Positions 5,105 to 12,767 of a stretch of DNA of 64,000 nt are shown here, one piece after another; positions within the stretch are counted from its first letter, which is position 1, and each line of letters begins with the position of its first letter. Under the pieces are notes generated by a model. That model made no database searches and was not told where the DNA came from. It worked only from the letters and a program-made list of their open reading frames with translations. The DNA is from Haloferax elongans ATCC BAA-1513 (lineage in GTDB: Archaea > Halobacteriota > Halobacteria > Halobacteriales > Haloferacaceae), in contig NZ_AOLK01000015.1 in assembly GCF_000336755.1 (NCBI RefSeq), positions 343,509 through 407,508 of the forward strand, in the 5' to 3' direction. A program made the translations under genes and the position numbers.

Positions 5105-5599
5105 GTGCACAGCCGACTCGTCCGTGAGGTACGTTCCGACGTGGGGACTGCTCTGTTCGCCACTGAGGTACTCCTCTCGGCAGTCGTCCTCGTGAGCGTC
5201 GGACTGACGCTCGTGTCGCCGCTCGTCCCCACGATTCCGCTTTCCGACATCGGATTCTCGGCAGCGGCGGCCACCATCCTCATTCTCACCGGAACCTCGC
5301 TGTTCGCGGCATCCCGCCGAATCGTCCGGTTTCTCACCGGTCGCGGCGGCGTCGAGATGGAGTCGTTCTGGCGGATGCTCGAACTGATGCTCGCATTCTT
5401 CGTCGCCGGTATCGTCGCGTTCACCTTTCGACTCGGCGAGTTCTCGGTGACAGTTCCTCACCGCACCGGCAACGAGGTTTTCGTCGGGCTCTTCTTCGCG
5501 TACGTCCTCGCGGGCGTCGGCCTCGCGGTCATCGTCTTTCTGCGGGCGACGTGGCGCGTCGTCGAAGCCGAGATTCAGTCGGCACTCGACAGCGCCTGA
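5105..5599 (+). CDS. Small integral membrane protein, unknown function
   Basis: About 164 residues with four clear hydrophobic segments (near residues 16-40, 45-65, 90-110 and 130-155) separated by short Arg-rich loops. The start is probably the GTG at 5105 (reading VHSRLVREV); no ATG gives a better N terminus, and codons upstream read through the 3' end of the reductase in a non-coding style. Its 3' end overlaps the 3' end of the convergent MFS gene by 25 nt. I recognise no family. The topology, with two TM hairpins, recalls small uncharacterised haloarchaeal membrane proteins. Confidence 0.62.
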   Translation: MHSRLVREVRSDVGTALFATEVLLSAVVLVSVGLTLVSPLVPTIPLSDIGFSAAAATILILTGTSLFAASRRIVRFLTGRGGVEMESFWRMLELMLAFFVAGIVAFTFRLGEFSVTVPHRTGNEVFVGLFFAYVLAGVGLAVIVFLRATWRVVEAEIQSALDSA

Positions 5600-6774
5600 G
5601 CCGACTGTTCGGGGTCGAGTCGGCGGACCGCACGGAACGCGACGAGCGCGATTGCGACCTCCGCGAGTCCGACGACGAGGAACGACTCAAAGTAGCCGAC
5701 CACTTCTGCGACGCTCCCGCCAATGATGAACCCGGCGAGGAATCCCAGACTGCCGAAGACGTTGAACCCGCCGAGTGCGGCCCCGCGCTCGCCCGGTTCG
5801 GCGAGGTCGGTGACGAGCGCCATCGTCGCGGGGGCGACCATCGCCCCGAAGACACCGACGACCAGCATCGCGGCAGCGGCGGGGATGAGTGTCGGTGCAA
5901 CGCCGACGCCGACGATAGAGAGGCCGAACAGCACCGACCCGCCGACAACCGGGATGAACCGTCCGATTCGGTCCGAGAGCGCGCCCATCGGGTACTGGAG
6001 GAGGGCAAACGGGACGAAAAAGAGCGCGAGAATCCCGCCTGCGAGAGCGGCGTCGACGCCGAACTCCTGACGGAAGTAGAAGACGCCGACGAGCGAGAAG
6101 AACCCGGCTGTCATCCGGTCGATAAAGCCGAAGGCGAAGGGAATTCCGAAGACGGGCTTCGCCGCGAGACGGCGCAGAATCGTTCCGAACTTGACCCGTG
6201 TGGTGTCGGGAGCGCGGTCGGTGACGGTCGTCACGAGAATCGCGACCGCGACGAGGACGGCCGCGGCGGCGTACAGTGGGGCAAGCGGGTCGAACGTCGA
6301 AAGCCGACCGCCCACGACTGAGCCGAGTGCAGCGCCGAGGCCGATGGCGATACCGGCCGCACCCATGTTCCGACCGTTACCGCCAGTGAGGTCTGCGAGC
6401 ATCGTGATTGCCAGCGAGAACGCGCCGATGGTCATCGCCCCGCCGACGAGGCGGACGCCGAGTGCGACGACGAATGGTGCACCGAGACTCGGCAGCGTGG
6501 CGAGCGTGAGATAGCTCGCTGCACCACCGAGTGCGCCAGCGACGATGAGCGGCGTGCGTTTGCCGAGGGTGTCGGACAGGGCACCCCAGACGCTCGCGAA
6601 CGCGACGAACGCGGCGAACTCGGCGACCAGAAAGAGCATCCCGCCGGTGAGGTCTCCCTTCCCGCCGAGCGCCGTGACGAGGTCGGCGACGCCCGGATAG
6701 AGGAACACCTGCGAGACGAGCACGCCCCAGACGGCGAGTGCGAGCGCCAGTCGGTCACGACGCGTCACTTCCAT
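5575..6774 (-). CDS. Major facilitator superfamily transporter
   Basis: A 399-residue, 12-helix carrier. The first half has the MFS signature loop between TM2 and TM3 (GALSDTLGKRTP) and the second half repeats it (GALSDRIGRFIP), as expected for the duplicated six-helix bundle. The chain is within the usual MFS length. The substrate is not predictable; the overall look (many Gly/Ala-rich helices, no large loops) is that of drug-efflux type (DHA1-like) MFS proteins. It is transcribed alone, convergent with the preceding membrane protein and followed by the P19-like lipoprotein gene after a 57-nt gap on its downstream-coordinate side. Confidence 0.88.
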   Translation of the reverse strand: MEVTRRDRLALALAVWGVLVSQVFLYPGVADLVTALGGKGDLTGGMLFLVAEFAAFVAFASVWGALSDTLGKRTPLIVAGALGGAASYLTLATLPSLGAPFVVALGVRLVGGAMTIGAFSLAITMLADLTGGNGRNMGAAGIAIGLGAALGSVVGGRLSTFDPLAPLYAAAAVLVAVAILVTTVTDRAPDTTRVKFGTILRRLAAKPVFGIPFAFGFIDRMTAGFFSLVGVFYFRQEFGVDAALAGGILALFFVPFALLQYPMGALSDRIGRFIPVVGGSVLFGLSIVGVGVAPTLIPAAAAMLVVGVFGAMVAPATMALVTDLAEPGERGAALGGFNVFGSLGFLAGFIIGGSVAEVVGYFESFLVVGLAEVAIALVAFRAVRRLDPEQSAQALSSAD

Positions 6775-6831: not shown

Positions 6832-7887
6832 CTACGACAAGGTGGTCGTGTCGAACTCCAAGAAGGCCGTTTCGTACCCCTCGTGGCGGGCGACCTGCGG
6901 TGGAACGTCAACCGAGAGTTCGATGTCGTCTTCGGGCGAGAGTTCGGGGACGGTCGCTCCGTAGTGGAACCCGAGTTCGGGGTCGAGTCCGGGGTCGAGG
7001 CGGCCGTCGAATCGGACGTGCCCGCCGCCGGAGACAGTCGCAGAGAGGCCTGTTCGCGGAACGACTAGCTTGTTGTACGGTGTCTGTGCCGAGACAGCGA
7101 GGTAGGTGTCGTCGCCGAATCGCGAGTCCGAGATGGCCGTCCCGACCAGTCGGAGGTCACTTGCGACCCCGCTTCCGAGGGCGTCACCGGGAAGTGACGC
7201 GGGTGCGCGCCCGAGGGGTGTCATCTCCATCTGCATCGGCTTGGCTGCACCGCGGTCACCTTTCTTGTCGTCGAGCCGAGTGAACGGGATGTCGTTTCTG
7301 TCTCGGGCGCTGAACTCGAAGTCGAGACGCGCAGCAGCGGCGGATTGGAACTTCCCGTCCAACTCGCCGAACAGGTTCAGTGTCGCCGCCCCGACGCTCA
7401 CGCGAATCTCGTAGGTTCCGTCGCCGTCGAGCCCGAAGTTCGCGCCGTAGTGAAAGCCCATCTGTTGGGAGAGCATCGAGTAGATGACCTCCTCGCCCAC
7501 GAGCGAGCCGTCCTGAAAGAGTTCGACCGACAGCCCGGTGTCGGGGACGACGACACCCGTCTCGGGGTCCCAGACCGTCGCCATGAGATGGACGTCGTCG
7601 CTTCGGGCGGGACGGGTCAGGTTGGTTCCGAAGTCGCCGTCTTCGTCGTCCATCACCCAGAAGCGATGCGGATAGCCGTAGAAGACCCCCACGCGGTAGT
7701 CGCCCGCGTCGGCGGTGCCGACCATCTTCATCCCCTCGACGTGGGTCGGAATGTACGGTTCGTCGGGTCGGTTCGACAGCACCGGCGGTTCGTTCGACGT
7801 GTAGATGCGGCCGAGTTCTGCCAGACAGCCGGAGAGACCGAACGTTGCGGCAGTTCCCGTCGCCGCGAGGAACCGACGCCGTCGCAT
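6832..7887 (-). CDS. Tat lipoprotein with two P19-like iron-transport domains
   Basis: A 351-residue exported lipoprotein starting MRRRRFLAATG, with a twin-arginine signal and lipobox SGCL. The mature part carries two related halves. The first has DVHLMATVW, then VVVPDTGLSVE and FHYGAN near residue 146. The second has DTYLAVSAQ, VVPRTGLSAT and FHYGAT near residue 308. The HYGAN signature with the following GDGTYEI strand matches P19/Tp34 periplasmic iron-transport proteins (PF10634), beta-sandwich proteins that bind copper and iron. Met residues before the first HYGAN (SMLSQQM) could be ligands; the second half lacks them. The start overlaps the Sco1 stop (TGATG, or GTGA if GTG at 7890 is used), so the two are coupled. 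Metal specificity is inferred. Confidence 0.72.
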   Translation of the reverse strand: MRRRRFLAATGTAATFGLSGCLAELGRIYTSNEPPVLSNRPDEPYIPTHVEGMKMVGTADAGDYRVGVFYGYPHRFWVMDDEDGDFGTNLTRPARSDDVHLMATVWDPETGVVVPDTGLSVELFQDGSLVGEEVIYSMLSQQMGFHYGANFGLDGDGTYEIRVSVGAATLNLFGELDGKFQSAAAARLDFEFSARDRNDIPFTRLDDKKGDRGAAKPMQMEMTPLGRAPASLPGDALGSGVASDLRLVGTAISDSRFGDDTYLAVSAQTPYNKLVVPRTGLSATVSGGGHVRFDGRLDPGLDPELGFHYGATVPELSPEDDIELSVDVPPQVARHEGYETAFLEFDTTTLS

Positions 7888-8555
7888 CACGCCTCCCGAA
7901 GTGCAGTCAGGTCGTCGATGAGGGTCTGTTCGTCCGGTTCGTTCCCGCGGTAGGTGCGCTCGACGTAGCCGTCACCGTTGACGAGCATGACGAGGCCGAG
8001 GTGCGTGAACATGTAGTTCCCGTCTTCCATCGGTTCGTTCTGGTCGAAGAAGACGCCGAACTGCTCTTCGACGACCGACTTCGTCTCCGCTTCGTCTTCG
8101 GCGCGGAGGAAGTGCCAGTTACCCGCGTCCATGTCGACGTTCATGTCGTCTGCCTCCTTGCGGAAGGCGGCCGCGTCGTCGCGTGCGGGGTCGAAGGTAA
8201 TCGGATAGAAGCCGACTTTGTCGGCATAGCCTTCGGAGACGGAGTGAATCTGCACCTCGCGAAGGGCGCTGATGAGGACCGGACAGACGGTCATGCAGTT
8301 GGTGAAAAAGAACGTGTGGAAGTGCGGCACGTCGATGTCGCGGACGGCGACGTCGGTCCCACTGAGCGGGTCTCGGAGCGTGACGTCAGGAACCTGCTGT
8401 CCCCACGCGGGGTACGGGAGTTGCTCGCTGGTCACGTCGTTTTCGCGGTCGGGTTTCGAAAGCGAGACGTTCGGGTTCCCGCCACCGCCCAGACAGCCAG
8501 CGAGCCCGAGAGCCGCACCAGTACCCACGGTGCGGAGGTAGGTTCGTCGATTCAT
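7887..8555 (-). CDS. Sco1/SenC family copper-binding lipoprotein
   Basis: A 222-residue thioredoxin-fold protein. It begins MNRRTYLRTVG with a Tat-type signal and lipobox AGCL, so it is anchored outside the membrane. The copper motif C87-x3-C91 (TNCMTVCP) and the distal H185 (YMFTHLG) are all present, as in Sco proteins that deliver copper to the CuA site of cytochrome oxidase or keep its cysteines reduced. Upstream in-frame codons to 8612 are not signal-like, so the ATG at 8555 is chosen. It is coupled to the P19-like gene and divergent from the DyP-like gene, sharing a 138-bp promoter region. No oxidase genes are nearby, so the partner may be the P19-like protein or an oxidase elsewhere. 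Confidence 0.87.
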   Translation of the reverse strand: MNRRTYLRTVGTGAALGLAGCLGGGGNPNVSLSKPDRENDVTSEQLPYPAWGQQVPDVTLRDPLSGTDVAVRDIDVPHFHTFFFTNCMTVCPVLISALREVQIHSVSEGYADKVGFYPITFDPARDDAAAFRKEADDMNVDMDAGNWHFLRAEDEAETKSVVEEQFGVFFDQNEPMEDGNYMFTHLGLVMLVNGDGYVERTYRGNEPDEQTLIDDLTALREA

Positions 8556-8693
8556 TACCGACTCTATCGGTCCGAGAGCTAAATGCCGTTTGGTGTGCGT
8601 TTCGAACGCCAAGCCGCCGGTTTGGATTCGAGAGGCGAACCAATTTCAGGCGCACACCAGAACCCACTTGCGTTCGAGGACCAAATCCAGGGT

Positions 8694-9980
8694 ATGTTCG
8701 ATGGGGAGTCATCTCGCAGAGCGTTCCTGAAAGCCGCCGTCGCAGCAGGCGGTGCAGCGGCGCTTTCAGCGTGCCTCGACAGGGCACCCGACGAGCCGGT
8801 CCCGTCGGGAACCGACGACCCAGCCGCCCTCCCGACTCGACAGCACGCCTGGAACGACGCGTGTCGGACTGACGAATACGGAAACGTCGAGATACCGTTC
8901 CATCAGATTCTGCTCTATTTGACCCTCGACGGCGACGGCCCACCGACGAAATCGGACCGTGAGACCACCGAGAACGCCTTCCGCGTGCTCGACCGCGCAT
9001 ACGAACGCAGCCACGACGGACTGCTCTGGTCTGTCGCCTACTCGCCGCGGTACTTCTCTCGCTTCGACGACTCGCTCCCTGAGTCTCTCGACCTGCCCGA
9101 ACCGCGAGCACTGTCGCCGTTCGAGACGCCTGAGTTCGACCGACAGGACGCACTCGTCCACCTCGCGTCTGACAGGGCGGACGTCGTCTTGGAAGCAGAG
9201 CAGGCGCTCACGGGCGAGGTGGACGAAGCAAACGGTGTTGCGGTCGAGACCGACCTCTCGGGCGTCTTTTCGGTCGATGCCAGACGAACCGGATTCGTCG
9301 GCTCCGGCCTACCGGCGAAACACCAGTCAGACGTCAACGGCATCCCTGACGGCAATCCCGTCCCGAAGGCGGCTCCGCTATTCATGGGCTTCAAAGCCGG
9401 ATTCGCCAAGAATCAGGCCACGGAGGACTACGTCACGCTCGACGACGGGCCATTCGCGGGCGGCACGACGAAACACGTCGCCAACGTCCGGCAGCGACTC
9501 TCCGACTGGTACGACGAAGAAGACCAGTATCACCGCGTGATGAAGTTGTTCTCGCCCGACCACGCCGAGGGCGAACTGGTCGACGGAATCGGCGCGAACC
9601 TCGGCGACGACAGTGGTATCGACGACATGCTCGACCGCATCCGCGACGATGCCGAACAGTTCGGCCATGTCGGCCACGCCCAGAAAGCCGCCCGCGCCAA
9701 CCGCGACGAGGATGGAAACGTCAAACTCCTCCGGCGGCACTTCGAGTCGGCAGACGACGGCGTCGCGAGCCTGCACTTCCCCTCGCTTCAGCGCGGCATC
9801 TCGGATTTCGAGGCAGTCCGCGAGGCGATGAACGGAACCGACCTCACCGACATTCCGACCATCCGCCAGCGCGTGAACAACGGAATTTTGGAGTACATCT
9901 TCGTCAAGCACCGCGGGAACTTCCTCGTTCCGCCGCGAGAGATTCGGGCGTTGCCCACGCCGACGGGCGACGCGCCGTAA
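8694..9980 (+). CDS. Tat-exported DyP-peroxidase-like protein
   Basis: A 428-residue protein with a Tat motif (SSRRAFLKAA) and lipobox-like SACL at residues 25-28. The C-terminal half resembles dye-decolorizing peroxidases: MGFKAG (232-236) sits where the GxxDG motif belongs, a His near 325-328 (FGHVGHAQKAARAN) resembles the heme-ligand stretch before the ANPR-like motif, and LLRRHF and HFPSLQRGISDFEAVR follow in the usual order. The catalytic Asp of GxxDG is replaced by Ala235. Known DyP proteins such as EfeB extract iron from heme or oxidise substrates outside the cell. Activity here is uncertain. The ATG at 8694 is chosen because the Tat motif follows directly. It neighbours P19-like and Sco1 genes. 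Confidence 0.62.
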   Translation: MFDGESSRRAFLKAAVAAGGAAALSACLDRAPDEPVPSGTDDPAALPTRQHAWNDACRTDEYGNVEIPFHQILLYLTLDGDGPPTKSDRETTENAFRVLDRAYERSHDGLLWSVAYSPRYFSRFDDSLPESLDLPEPRALSPFETPEFDRQDALVHLASDRADVVLEAEQALTGEVDEANGVAVETDLSGVFSVDARRTGFVGSGLPAKHQSDVNGIPDGNPVPKAAPLFMGFKAGFAKNQATEDYVTLDDGPFAGGTTKHVANVRQRLSDWYDEEDQYHRVMKLFSPDHAEGELVDGIGANLGDDSGIDDMLDRIRDDAEQFGHVGHAQKAARANRDEDGNVKLLRRHFESADDGVASLHFPSLQRGISDFEAVREAMNGTDLTDIPTIRQRVNNGILEYIFVKHRGNFLVPPREIRALPTPTGDAP

Positions 9981-10021
9981 CTGTCTTCGGGCCGCTTCGA
10001 GAACCATCCTGAAAGAGACCG

Positions 10022-10150
10022 ATGACGCTCGTCCAACTCAGCCTCGAAAACCCGGGGCGACTCGTCCAGTTCGCCGTCGGGGTCGTCTTCTTGTTCGGTG
10101 TGTTTCCCGCGGTCTACGTCCTCGGACGACTGTTCGACCGAGTGGTCTAA
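10022..10150 (+). CDS. 42-residue single-span membrane protein
   Basis: A short reading frame, ATG at 10022, encoding MTLVQLSLENPGRL followed by one strongly hydrophobic segment (VQFAVGVVFLFGVFPAVYVL) and a short charged tail ending DRVV. It lies 41 nt after the DyP-like gene and on the same strand, and 21 nt before the convergent CcdA gene. Codon use is haloarchaeal (GC-rich third positions). I recognise no family. Its position suggests it is cotranscribed with the DyP-like gene and may be a small membrane partner. Confidence 0.5.
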   Translation: MTLVQLSLENPGRLVQFAVGVVFLFGVFPAVYVLGRLFDRVV

Positions 10151-10171
10151 TCGGTACGTCGGTACGCCGTC

Positions 10172-10840
10172 TCAGACGTATCCGAGGAACCCGAGCGCCA
10201 GCCAAATCTGCCAGCCACCGGCCAGTACCATCACGACGGCCGCGACTTTCTGCACCGACCCGATGTACTGCGACAGCGACCTGATTCGGCCGCTACCGAG
10301 CGCGGCCAGTACGGTCACGATAGCTAACGGGAGCGCCGCCGCCAGCGCGTACGCACCGAGCGAAATCACGGCCTGTGGCGTCGGCAGGGCGAGCGACTGC
10401 GCGACCACGCCGAGGAAAATCGGAACGACACAGCCCGCCGCGGCGAGGCCGTAGACCGCTCCGAAGATACCGAACCCGGCGACCGAAGACCGGTACTCGG
10501 GCAGGACAACGTGGAGATTCGGCGCTCGGCCGGTGTACAGGAGGACGCCGAAGACGACGAGCGCCCCGCCGACAATTGGCTCGAAGAGGGCGATTTGGGA
10601 GGTGATTCGACCGCCGACGAGGACGAGGACGCCCCCGATAGCCGCGAGGACGACGAGGGCGGCGAGCGAGGCGACGGACCCACGGGTGACGGCCCCGCCG
10701 AGGTCGGCCTCCTCACGCGAGAGGTAGTAGCCGACGTAGCCCGGAAGCAGCGGGTAGGCACACGGCGCGAAGAACGTCGCGACACCCGCACTCACTGCGA
10801 ACGCGAGCGTCCCGGCGAAGGCGGGGTCGAGGTCGAGCAT
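10172..10840 (-). CDS. CcdA-type cytochrome c / thiol-reductant transporter
   Basis: A 222-residue polytopic membrane protein of the CcdA/DsbD-beta family, with six hydrophobic segments. The two redox cysteines are C27 in FFAPCAYPLLPGY and C137 in AAAGCVVPIFLG, each at the start of a triplet of helices as in the family. CcdA passes electrons from cytoplasmic thioredoxin to extracytoplasmic thiol proteins. The ATG at 10840-10838 overlaps the stop of the TlpA-like lipoprotein gene (TGATG), so the reductant carrier and its likely acceptor are coupled. Longer in-frame sequence upstream belongs to the antisense of the TlpA gene and is not coding. Confidence 0.88.
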   Translation of the reverse strand: MLDLDPAFAGTLAFAVSAGVATFFAPCAYPLLPGYVGYYLSREEADLGGAVTRGSVASLAALVVLAAIGGVLVLVGGRITSQIALFEPIVGGALVVFGVLLYTGRAPNLHVVLPEYRSSVAGFGIFGAVYGLAAAGCVVPIFLGVVAQSLALPTPQAVISLGAYALAAALPLAIVTVLAALGSGRIRSLSQYIGSVQKVAAVVMVLAGGWQIWLALGFLGYV

Positions 10841-11421
10841 CAGCGCACGTCCTCGAGCGCCTCCCGGATGTTCGACTCGCTGGCGAGTCCGCGGTGGGTC
10901 CACGTTTTGGTGCCATTCTCGTCGAAGACGACGAGGTACGGAAGGCCGTTTGCGCGTACAGCGCGCATGAGTTCGCTCTCGGGGTCGTGACCGACGGTCC
11001 ACGACCCGTCGTGTTCGGCCCACCACGACCGGATATCGTCCATGGTGAGGCCGCCGCCGAGTCGTTCGTTCGTGACCGAAACGAACGCCACGTCGTCGCC
11101 GAACTCGTCGTGGAGCGTTCGAAGCGACTCCATCTGCGCGACACACGGCGCACACCACGTGGCGAAGAGGTCGAGGATGGTCGGCGTCCCCGCGACTGGG
11201 ACGCTGAGCTCGCCCGCTTCCGAACCCTGTGCGTCGATGGTATCGACGACTAACGGGAGGTCGCCGCTGGCGGCGGACTCGGTGGAGTCAGTGGCCGTTT
11301 CGGCCGTGTCGGTGGAACCGGCGGCATCGTCGGTTCCGCCGGACGAACCGCCACCGAGACACCCGGCGATTCCCGAGAGGCCGACGCCCGCGAGTGCGCC
11401 GAGAAGTCGACGGCGTCTCAC
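10840..11421 (-). CDS. TlpA-like thioredoxin lipoprotein
   Basis: A 193-residue exported thioredoxin-fold protein. It starts at a GTG (MRRRRLLGAL) with a Tat-type signal and lipobox AGCL at 19-22, followed by a Ser/Thr/Asp-rich linker typical of halophile lipoproteins. The redox site is WCAPC (C90, C93), and the cis-proline loop is NGLPYLVV. TlpA/ResA proteins reduce apocytochrome c, copper chaperones or other surface thiols. It overlaps the CcdA gene by one base, an arrangement strongly suggesting CcdA keeps it reduced. A 16-codon frame just upstream ends in GTGA over this start. Confidence 0.88.
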   Translation of the reverse strand: MRRRRLLGALAGVGLSGIAGCLGGGSSGGTDDAAGSTDTAETATDSTESAASGDLPLVVDTIDAQGSEAGELSVPVAGTPTILDLFATWCAPCVAQMESLRTLHDEFGDDVAFVSVTNERLGGGLTMDDIRSWWAEHDGSWTVGHDPESELMRAVRANGLPYLVVFDENGTKTWTHRGLASESNIREALEDVR

Positions 11422-11468
11422 AGGCCGTCACCTCGGCGTCGCAGCATCGCCAATCGCGTCGCGTTCAT
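11418..11468 (-). CDS. Possible 16-residue leader peptide before tlpA
   Basis: A tiny frame, ATG at 11468, encoding MNATRLAMLRRRGDGL and stopping with a TGA that overlaps the GTG start of the TlpA lipoprotein (GTGA). The TlpA gene uses a weak GTG start, and a terminating upstream frame could feed ribosomes to it. Basic composition and length do not resemble any known protein. This may equally be chance; no conservation can be judged from this window. Confidence 0.2.
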   Translation of the reverse strand: MNATRLAMLRRRGDGL

Positions 11469-11555
11469 ACGCATGGCTAGTTCGTTTCCCCCTAAAGAAC
11501 CGCTGGTGTCGTGCGCGAATCACGCGTCAGAGGTGGTGTGGCAGTCGAATTTGCG

Positions 11556-12245
11556 CTATCGGGCGTTCTCGATGGCGGATTTCAGGTCTTCCCACCGCGG
11601 GGGTACCTGCTTACCGTTCACGAGGACCGTCGGCGTGCCCTGGAAGCCACGGTTCTCCACCGCGTCCGTTCGCTGGGATTCGAGGAGTGGTCGATAGCGG
11701 TCCCGAGAGGCAGCGGCGGCGACCGAACACCCGTCGAGACCGGCGTCGTTCGCGAGGTCCCGAAGCGTCGAGAGCGAGGCCTGGGTGTCGTCGCCACCGA
11801 ACGTCGACTGGTTCTCGAACAGCGTGTGTGCGAAGGCGAAGAACGTCTCGTCGTCGGCTTCGTCCTGTGCCGCACGGGCGGCGGAGGCACCTTTCCACGA
11901 CCACCACTCTTTGACCGGGAGCGGGAAGTCGTGGTGGCGGTACTGGACGACACCGTCGGCGACGTACTCGGACTCGACTTGCGGAAGAATCTCCAGCGAG
12001 AAGGTCGCACAGTGAGGGCAGGCGAAGTCTTCCCACGCATCGACGACGACAGGCGCATCGTCGGGACCCATCGTGGGCGTCGGGAGGGAATCGACTGGGT
12101 CGCGCTCGTCGATGCTACAGCCGAGCGAAGCGATGGGGTCCTCTCCGTCGCTCTGGCTGTCACCACCGTTTCCGAGACACCCGGCGGTGCCGAGCACCGC
12201 CGACCCGGCCGTTGCTGCGAGGAACCTGCGTCGGGTCTGTTGCAT
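11556..12245 (-). CDS. DsbA/Fe-S-type thioredoxin-fold lipoprotein
   Basis: A 229-residue exported protein of the DsbA-like (Thioredoxin_4) family. It begins MQQTRRRFLAATAG, a Tat signal with lipobox TAGCL. The redox motif is CPHC (C76, C79) and the cis-proline loop is QGTPTVLVNG, with a helical insertion between them, the usual DsbA arrangement. Such proteins introduce or shuffle disulfides outside the cytoplasm. The start is the ATG at 12245 because the Tat motif follows at once; a much longer in-frame extension to 12872 is antisense to the ferredoxin gene and is not coding. It is a separate unit from tlpA-ccdA (87-nt gap beyond the leader frame) and is divergent from the ferredoxin. Confidence 0.87.
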   Translation of the reverse strand: MQQTRRRFLAATAGSAVLGTAGCLGNGGDSQSDGEDPIASLGCSIDERDPVDSLPTPTMGPDDAPVVVDAWEDFACPHCATFSLEILPQVESEYVADGVVQYRHHDFPLPVKEWWSWKGASAARAAQDEADDETFFAFAHTLFENQSTFGGDDTQASLSTLRDLANDAGLDGCSVAAAASRDRYRPLLESQRTDAVENRGFQGTPTVLVNGKQVPPRWEDLKSAIENAR

Positions 12246-12407
12246 AGCCGTTGTGAAGGGTGTCCCGTACTTAGGCCCACCGAGGTCTGTCGTTGGTATC
12301 GACCTGGGCGTCGAGGGCGGCGCGTTCGAGTCAGACATCGAGAACGGCACGCTGAGTCCGCTGTCGAGAACGACACGTCTTAACGCGCTCGTCGCATCTC
12401 TGCAGTC

Positions 12408-12767
12408 GTGCCAACCGTCCACTTCCGCGGGCGTGAAATCGAATGTAACCGCGGTGCAGTCCTTCGGGACGTCCTCCGTGAGGCTGGTGAGTCCCCGTAC
12501 AACGGGAGCGCATCGTGGGCCAACTGCCGCGGTGTCGGCTGTTGTGGGACGTGTGCGGTCTCCGTCGAAGGTCCGGTCACCCACCGGACGAAGATGGAGG
12601 GCTGGCGTCTGAACTTCCCGCCGCACGACGGGAAACTCGGCGTCCGACTGTCGTGTCAAACGCTCGTCTTGGGTGACCTCTGGGTCGAGAAGTACCCCGG
12701 CTTCTGGGGACAAGAGATGCCCGAGGTCGAGTGTGACGGGCCTGACGAGACGGAAGACGGGGAGTAG
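12408..12767 (+). CDS. 2Fe-2S ferredoxin
   Basis: A 119-residue soluble electron carrier with a GTG start at 12408 and beta-grasp pattern. Cysteines C40, C46 and C49 (motif C-x5-C-x2-C, with an additional C45) and C83 in RLSCQT supply the four cluster ligands. It is shorter than the classic haloarchaeal ferredoxin and lacks its large acidic N-terminal insertion. Residues 84-119 form an unusual Trp/Gly/Pro-rich and then acidic tail. It is divergent from the DsbA-like gene with a 162-bp shared upstream region, so its partner could be a redox enzyme of the neighbouring thiol cluster, though this is inference. Confidence 0.85.
   Translation: MPTVHFRGREIECNRGAVLRDVLREAGESPYNGSASWANCRGVGCCGTCAVSVEGPVTHRTKMEGWRLNFPPHDGKLGVRLSCQTLVLGDLWVEKYPGFWGQEMPEVECDGPDETEDGE

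Follow-up and report, generated by a model that had tools for sequence, protein, structure and literature searches.

Positions 6,832 to 12,767 of the analysed DNA, a 64,000-nucleotide stretch of the Haloferax elongans ATCC BAA-1513 genome (contig NZ_AOLK01000015.1, positions 343,509 to 407,508; hereafter the window), hold a genuine conserved set of genes for a P19-like protein, a SCO1/SenC protein, a TlpA-like thioredoxin, a CcdA-like membrane protein and a DUF7405 protein with the fold of a dye-decolourising peroxidase (DyP). On balance, we consider it probable that this locus is an extracytoplasmic copper capture-and-delivery module. An earlier note on the same DNA had placed seven genes within these 6 kb (P19-like, Sco1, DyP-like, CcdA, TlpA, DsbA and ferredoxin), and all seven were recovered there. 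It had also suggested that this surface metal and thiol-redox cluster could be a distinct archaeal system. A module combining P19-fold and DyP-fold proteins, lacking FTR1 and distinct from known systems, is indeed real and conserved, and the association of its genes is stronger than the note claimed. With respect to the metal, left as iron or copper with Sco1 as the hint of copper, the copper branch was the better of the two and the iron branch fared poorly.

Conservation was surveyed in 97 genomes of Halobacteria. DUF7405 was detected in 85/97 and DUF7350, the C-terminal half of the P19-like protein, in 83/97; Haloferax volcanii, a control in the profile searches, was positive for both. The main DUF7405 type and P19/DUF7350 co-occurred in the same 83 genomes and were both absent from the other 14, two genomes without DUF7350 (G013 and G017) holding only a divergent DUF7405. 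Joint gains or losses of the pair were apparent within three genera (g2, g4 and g28). P19 was located within 3 kb of the main DUF7405 in 62/83 genomes, where ~0.3% per genome would be expected by chance. Counted by copy, 72/97 main DUF7405 genes had a P19 gene at ≤3 kb, in most cases (50/72) immediately downstream and co-oriented, and none of the 22 divergent copies did. Across a wider sample of the phylum, DUF7405 occurred in 18/148 genomes, all from the window's own order.

SCO1 was found ≤3 kb from P19 in 16/83 genomes, comprising four Haloferax, eleven members of family f4 (which we take to be Natrialbaceae) and G014; 12 of the 21 genomes whose DUF7405 does not adjoin P19 fall among these 16. 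P19 was arranged head-to-head with SCO1-TlpA-CcdA in 11/11 f4 loci. In locus L097 the order SCO-TlpA-DUF7405-P19 runs along a single strand, and in L143 ~4 kb separate SCO-TlpA-CcdA from DUF7405-P19. In the P19 tree (4 identical rows of 144 removed beforehand), f4 P19 genes formed a clade distant from those of Haloferax. We regard these loci, together with the distance of the f4 clade, as independent support for the set of five. Independent location in related genomes, the outcome that the earlier note had set against its proposal, was thus not what the neighbourhood comparison returned for these genes. On the same tree, SCO1 linkage needs six changes, of which one is an artefact (the L088 gene is the L248 gene truncated at an edge), one depends on a SCO1 remnant (L151) and one on a broken SCO1 (G014). 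The remnant (L151:9623-9808) belongs to Halorubrum tebenquichense and is found upstream of DUF7405, placed divergently just as the intact gene is in Haloferax.

The N-terminal half of the P19-like protein matched Pfam Iron_transport at 23.8 bits (cut-off 21). Its AlphaFold2 model, built from 42 sequences (pLDDT 93.8, pTM 0.90), resembled members of the P19 family, with every one of the best 28 solved-structure matches being P19, FetP, FtrA, Tp34 or HftA. VIA comparison with P19-family chains gave Z 12.2-13.9 for residues ~28-176 (~130 residues), and the next fold match was the Helicobacter pylori copper-resistance protein CrdA (VIA Z 9.6). In many P19-like proteins the DUF7350 profile matched twice in one open frame (e.g. 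G089, second match E 5.7e-9), suggesting that both halves are tandem relatives and that the protein is probably a fusion of two related domains.

Residues of this protein are numbered by the alignment of 42 sequences (A3 numbering). H51, H77, M79, M115, Q118, M120, H123, N127, H285, R311, H312 and E316 were invariant (42/42), H285 and R311-H312 belonging to the DUF7350 domain. They include H77, M115 and H123, the copper-site equivalents of P19 His42, Met88 and His95, the two histidines presumably having copper-site roles in P19. HMMER aligned VHLEAD of FtrA with VHLMAT, and PMVAND-GPHYG with xMLSQxMGxHYG. The available part of PMC9174327 assigns Glu3, Glu44, Asp46 and Asp92 to the acidic iron site of P19, and mutant structures met among the fold matches point, by their titles, to the importance of E44, M88 and D92. 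The place of Glu44 was M79 in 42/42, that of Asp46 (position 81) was T, S, A, V, I, G or N and acidic in 0/42, and that of Asp92 was 119 or M120, with M120 in 42/42 and no acid in any sequence. The counterpart of Glu3 may be E28 (of 36 ungapped sequences, 35 have E and one has D), a correspondence drawn solely from the VIA range. The C-terminal His of P19 acts across the dimer. This His, within GRHVD, aligned to F157 in domain 1 (F in 40 and L in 2 of 42), and domain 2 ends in RHEGYETAF, similar to the C-terminal motif of P19 and containing the invariant H312. This pattern suggests that domain 1 (H, M, M, H) and the RH...ET His of domain 2 may form one composite copper site in a covalent pseudo-dimer.

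The DyP-like protein of the window carried no Pfam label other than DUF7405, and its closest named relative found was an H. larsenii protein (97% identical). Its model (pLDDT 85.0, pTM 0.88) matched DyPs with a Foldseek E of 5.8e-16, all 50 matches listed being DyPs, and VIA gave Z 24.1-25.6 over ~280 residues, with EfeB at Z 24.4 and DtpA at Z 24.3. At the profile level, one of 47 family members matched NCBIfam Dyp_perox_fam (1.1e-5), the sole Dyp_perox_N match among 59 Halobacteria fell inside a DUF7405 gene, and a hidden Markov model of the family run against PDB sequences reached deferrochelatase at E 1.3 only. The hhalign comparison of the DUF7405 alignment with E. coli EfeB, a single-sequence template, scored very weakly (probability 0.66%), so the residue alignment rests on motif agreement (GFKAG/GFKDG, GHAQK/SHIRL and LLRRHF/MLRRGY) and the fold match. 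Placed through these motifs and the weak EfeB alignment, the proximal heme-ligand His (H286) and the distal R305 and R306 occurred in 47/47 members. The Asp of the GXXDG motif was replaced by A (41), S (4), V (1) or T (1). It was also lost in 19/20 of the divergent copies read (20 of the 22), the exception being GFNDQ in L239, which brings the overall loss to 66/67 copies. GIPDG, which by eye fitted the motif in the window, was discarded as a candidate for it, its D being present in only 32/47 and the EfeB alignment placing the motif at GFKAG. In some DyPs an Arg performs the acid-base step (PMC8463360, in the part available), so the loss of Asp is compatible with peroxidase activity, which DUF7405 may retain.

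Further genes recurred around DUF7405 and P19, counted in 140 loci with some genomes included twice. A second P19-like gene of H. elongans on contig 19 (L201:5067-10513), and another in L213:9017-14490, share a conserved neighbourhood: each is clustered with a P1B-ATPase, a small membrane protein of C2H2-like type and a membrane protein of ~450 aa for which NCBIfam gave no match. The ~450-aa family also recurred near DUF7405 or P19 (L084:10383-11765, L205:4296-5678 and L220:10123-11601) and is a candidate permease; the one member scanned had no Pfam match. A DUF7282 surface-protein cluster was located ≤4 kb from DUF7405 in 23/23 non-Haloferacaceae-type loci where it was found (e.g. L183:8755-9696), and a PQQ/FG-GAP beta-propeller protein, possibly a client enzyme, in 17/140 loci around DUF7405 (L140:6770-8029). 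A gene pair of DUF7471 and an HVO_0163-type helix-turn-helix protein, a possible regulator, recurred just upstream of DUF7405 or P19 (L175:8897-9744).

Profile searches detected FTR1 neither in the H. elongans genome nor in any of the 97 Halobacteria (4/14 controls positive), extending genome-wide the earlier note's remark that no such permease was visible, and FTR1-dependent iron uptake was therefore discarded. PCuAC (PF04314) likewise gave 0/97 (3/14 controls positive), which removed it as the missing chaperone. Elsewhere, SCO1 and TlpA are partners in copper-site assembly. TlpA reduces ScoI in Bradyrhizobium, according to the available part of PMC6696091, from which the Sco motif definition was also taken. 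The accessible text of PMC4736821 describes a Streptomyces sco operon with ecuc and a Tat-exported DyP, dtpA, that acts in copper trafficking and whose maturation defects are rescued by copper; for DtpA, the authors suggest a possible role in oxidising metal ions. In H. mediterranei two SCO proteins are listed as copper chaperones (PMC9240420, in part). Taken together, the recurrent association of the genes, the promoter element shared by SCO1 and DUF7405, the kept copper-site and replaced iron-site residues, the fold match to CrdA, the absence of FTR1 and PCuAC, the SCO1-TlpA partnership and the Streptomyces operon make copper trafficking the best reading of the locus.

Under this reading, lipoproteins predicted to be exported by the twin-arginine translocation (Tat) system would lie on the outer face of the membrane, where the P19-like protein would bind copper through its invariant His/Met residues. 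CcdA would relay electrons through the membrane; their recipient, TlpA, would, by analogy to TlpA-ScoI chemistry, hold the Cys pair of SCO1 reduced. SCO1 could then swap copper with P19 and load cuproenzymes such as the CuA site of a heme-copper oxidase or halocyanin. The putative heme protein of DyP fold, which keeps His and Arg and lacks the catalytic Asp, would either oxidise copper or scavenge nearby peroxide, as proposed for DtpA. A more specific version is that the P19 fold was recast as a dedicated copper receptor, a pseudo-dimer whose composite His/Met site replaces PCuAC and is coupled to SCO1-TlpA-CcdA and to the Asp-less DyP as a cuprous oxidase; this we put forward tentatively, as somewhat doubtful in its entirety.

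Several observations weigh against assigning the locus to copper. Among P19 copies, 58/132 had no main DUF7405 within 3 kb. The nearness of SCO1 to P19 was confined to the 16/83 genomes, mostly of two clades, and the G014 SCO1 is broken. H. marinum (L125) and two Halogeometricum loci (L133 and L135) retain SCO1, DUF7405, CcdA, TlpA and DsbA and lack P19 between SCO1 and the permease of the major facilitator superfamily (MFS). The canonical C-x3-C is intact in Haloferax SCO1, and the f4 SCO1 beside P19 has C-x4-C (CPDGxC) in L202, L203, L204, L219, L220, L245, L246 and L248 and no such Cys pair by pattern search in L244, L247 and L249 (3/11). For the P1B-ATPase beside the second P19 of H. elongans, the Zn/Cd profile IB2 (496 bits) outscored the Cu profile IB1 (426 bits), and a copper type was accordingly discarded. 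An ATP-binding cassette (ABC) ATPase occurred among the recurrent neighbours elsewhere, of a type that presumably also serves iron-siderophore uptake. Lastly, bacterial P19 itself needs its copper site for iron transport, as a reference title in PMC10783030 indicates, so this site alone is compatible with iron.

The alternative that survives best is iron acquisition resembling FetMP or EfeUOB, in which P19 would present iron, the DyP-like protein would oxidise Fe(II) or strip heme, and an unrelated permease, either the MFS protein or the ~450-aa membrane protein, would replace FTR1. We regard it as unlikely, although the folds of both P19 and EfeB were found, the MFS gene lies downstream of P19 in Haloferacaceae and the ~450-aa proteins recur near P19. 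Set against these are the absence of FTR1 (97/97), the replaced Glu and Asp of the P19 iron site, the lost GXXDG Asp and an MFS linkage found in a single family, and even in loci lacking P19. SCO1 is, to our knowledge, not known from P19 iron loci. The Campylobacter P19 iron locus does have thioredoxin partners, FetE/F (PMC10783030, in part), which speak for iron, whilst SCO1 and TlpA-CcdA are known from copper-site assembly. For these reasons the earlier note's suggestion of iron uptake or heme-iron extraction was not borne out.

Rather unlikely, too, is that the locus protects the surface from copper and redox stress, with P19 sequestering Cu(I), the DyP-like protein removing peroxide or oxidising Cu(I) and the thioredoxins repairing thiols. 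The Met-rich P19 site, the fold match to CrdA and the P1B-ATPase adjoining the second P19 in two Haloferax genomes would fit such a role, but the SCO1-TlpA pairing is more familiar as a means of delivering metal than of tolerating it, and the Zn/Cd assignment of the ATPase does not favour it.

Within Haloferacaceae, local order alone is weak proof of partnership, since the unrelated flanking genes akr, acs, MFS, AhpC and MoxR are likewise conserved. Outside Haloferacaceae-type loci, DUF7405 hardly ever had DsbA, ferredoxin or MFS nearby. All three may be bystanders, the ferredoxin probably so, and the link of DsbA to the core set is uncertain. MFS was discarded as a specific partner, being adjacent in Haloferacaceae-type loci only and also where P19 is missing. 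The core of the cluster stands, and ferredoxin, DsbA and MFS fall within family-wide synteny. That the whole is a chance juxtaposition of unrelated thiol-redox and metal operons is very improbable, and already disfavoured for the five core genes, because P19 recurs with SCO1-TlpA-CcdA in another family in a different order and with DUF7405 across families.

The locus is not a single operon (Table 1): SCO1-P19(-MFS) and DsbA-TlpA-CcdA form separate minus-strand groups, with DUF7405 and the ferredoxin on the plus strand. The SCO1 stop overlaps the P19 start (TGATG), DUF7405 is divergent from SCO1, and the ferredoxin is divergent from DsbA. P19, SCO1, DUF7405, TlpA and DsbA carry an N-terminal RR motif and a lipobox-like sequence around a Cys (TAGC of DsbA assigned by eye), and are likely Tat-exported lipoproteins. 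SCO1 matched PF02630 at 53.7 bits and has the CMTVC (CxxxC) and FTHLGL His metal-site motifs. CcdA is the least secure name among the seven genes, its PF02683 match (E 0.12) being under the cut-off; the contexts of its two Cys fit what we take to be those of CcdA.

Table 1 Features of the locus and its downstream neighbour in the window
Feature	Position	Strand	Evidence
MFS permease	5575..6774	minus	57 bp downstream of P19
P19-like Tat-lipoprotein with C-terminal DUF7350	6832..7887	minus	Pfam, alignment, predicted model, fold matches, lipobox LSGC
SCO1/SenC lipoprotein	7887..8555	minus	PF02630, C-x3-C and His
Divergent promoter region SCO1/DUF7405	8556..8693	no strand	Common element CACACCA(A/G)A at -42/-41
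DUF7405 DyP-fold protein, predicted Tat export (RRAFL, lipobox LSAC)	8694..9980	plus	Pfam, model, fold match, motifs
CcdA-like membrane protein	10172..10840	minus	Weak PF02683, two Cys (CAYPLLPGY, AGCVVPIF), f4 gene order
TlpA/ResA-like Tat-lipoprotein thioredoxin	10840..11421	minus	Redoxin (Pfam), CxxC at 90/93
DsbA-like thioredoxin lipoprotein	11556..12245	minus	Thioredoxin_4 (Pfam); syntenic in Haloferacaceae
Plant-type 2Fe-2S ferredoxin	12408..12767	plus	Fer2 (Pfam); without export signal

The promoter element lies at -42 and -41 in the SCO1 and DUF7405 promoters. A 17-base pattern derived from these two sites had no further exact match in the whole genome; as it was built from the sites themselves, what carries weight is solely how alike the two sites are and where they lie. 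On both sides the element was present in the 10 other Haloferax loci examined, with the DUF7405 side altered in L125 and slightly altered in L123, and was absent from the DsbA promoter.

The supply of copper to halocyanin and heme-copper oxidases outside the haloarchaeal cytoplasm, from acquisition to delivery, has received little attention in the literature searched. This search returned no paper on DUF7350 or DUF7405, and none of the papers listed for haloarchaea with DyP or P19 looked relevant. If the copper reading is correct, DUF7350 and DUF7405, two families of 'unknown function' present in most Halobacteria surveyed, would gain a role, and the annotation 'Fe2+ transport protein' of such P19 proteins would be misleading. 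P19 would then represent a fold switched by evolution from iron to copper.

Among known systems, the Streptomyces sco-ecuc-SLI_4212-dtpA operon likewise unites a Sco chaperone, an extracytoplasmic copper chaperone and a Tat-exported DyP in one locus (PMC4736821, in part). Structures of Streptomyces DtpA were among the fold matches of DUF7405. Unlike that operon, the haloarchaeal locus has a tandem P19-fold protein in place of ECuC, which we take to belong to the PCuAC family missing from all Halobacteria surveyed; its DyP has lost the Asp, TlpA and CcdA are added, and no GlxA was identified. The FetMP, P19-cFtr1 and FtrABCD systems share the P19 fold and copper-site residues and, in Campylobacter, as far as the available source describes, thioredoxin partners, and differ from the haloarchaeal locus in its lack of FTR1, replaced iron-site acids, fused second domain and SCO1 partner. 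With EfeUOB and the EfeB deferrochelatase the common features are a Tat-exported DyP fold and the aligned proximal His and distal Arg. DUF7405 is 16-17% identical to solved EfeB structures and has GFKAG where EfeB has GFKDG, and no EfeU accompanies it (EfeO was outside the genome searches). Finally, Bradyrhizobium TlpA-ScoI-CoxB, in the part of its description available, similarly pairs a TlpA-type thioredoxin with Sco, whereas in haloarchaea this pair is joined by P19-like and DyP-like partners with a CcdA-like gene alongside.

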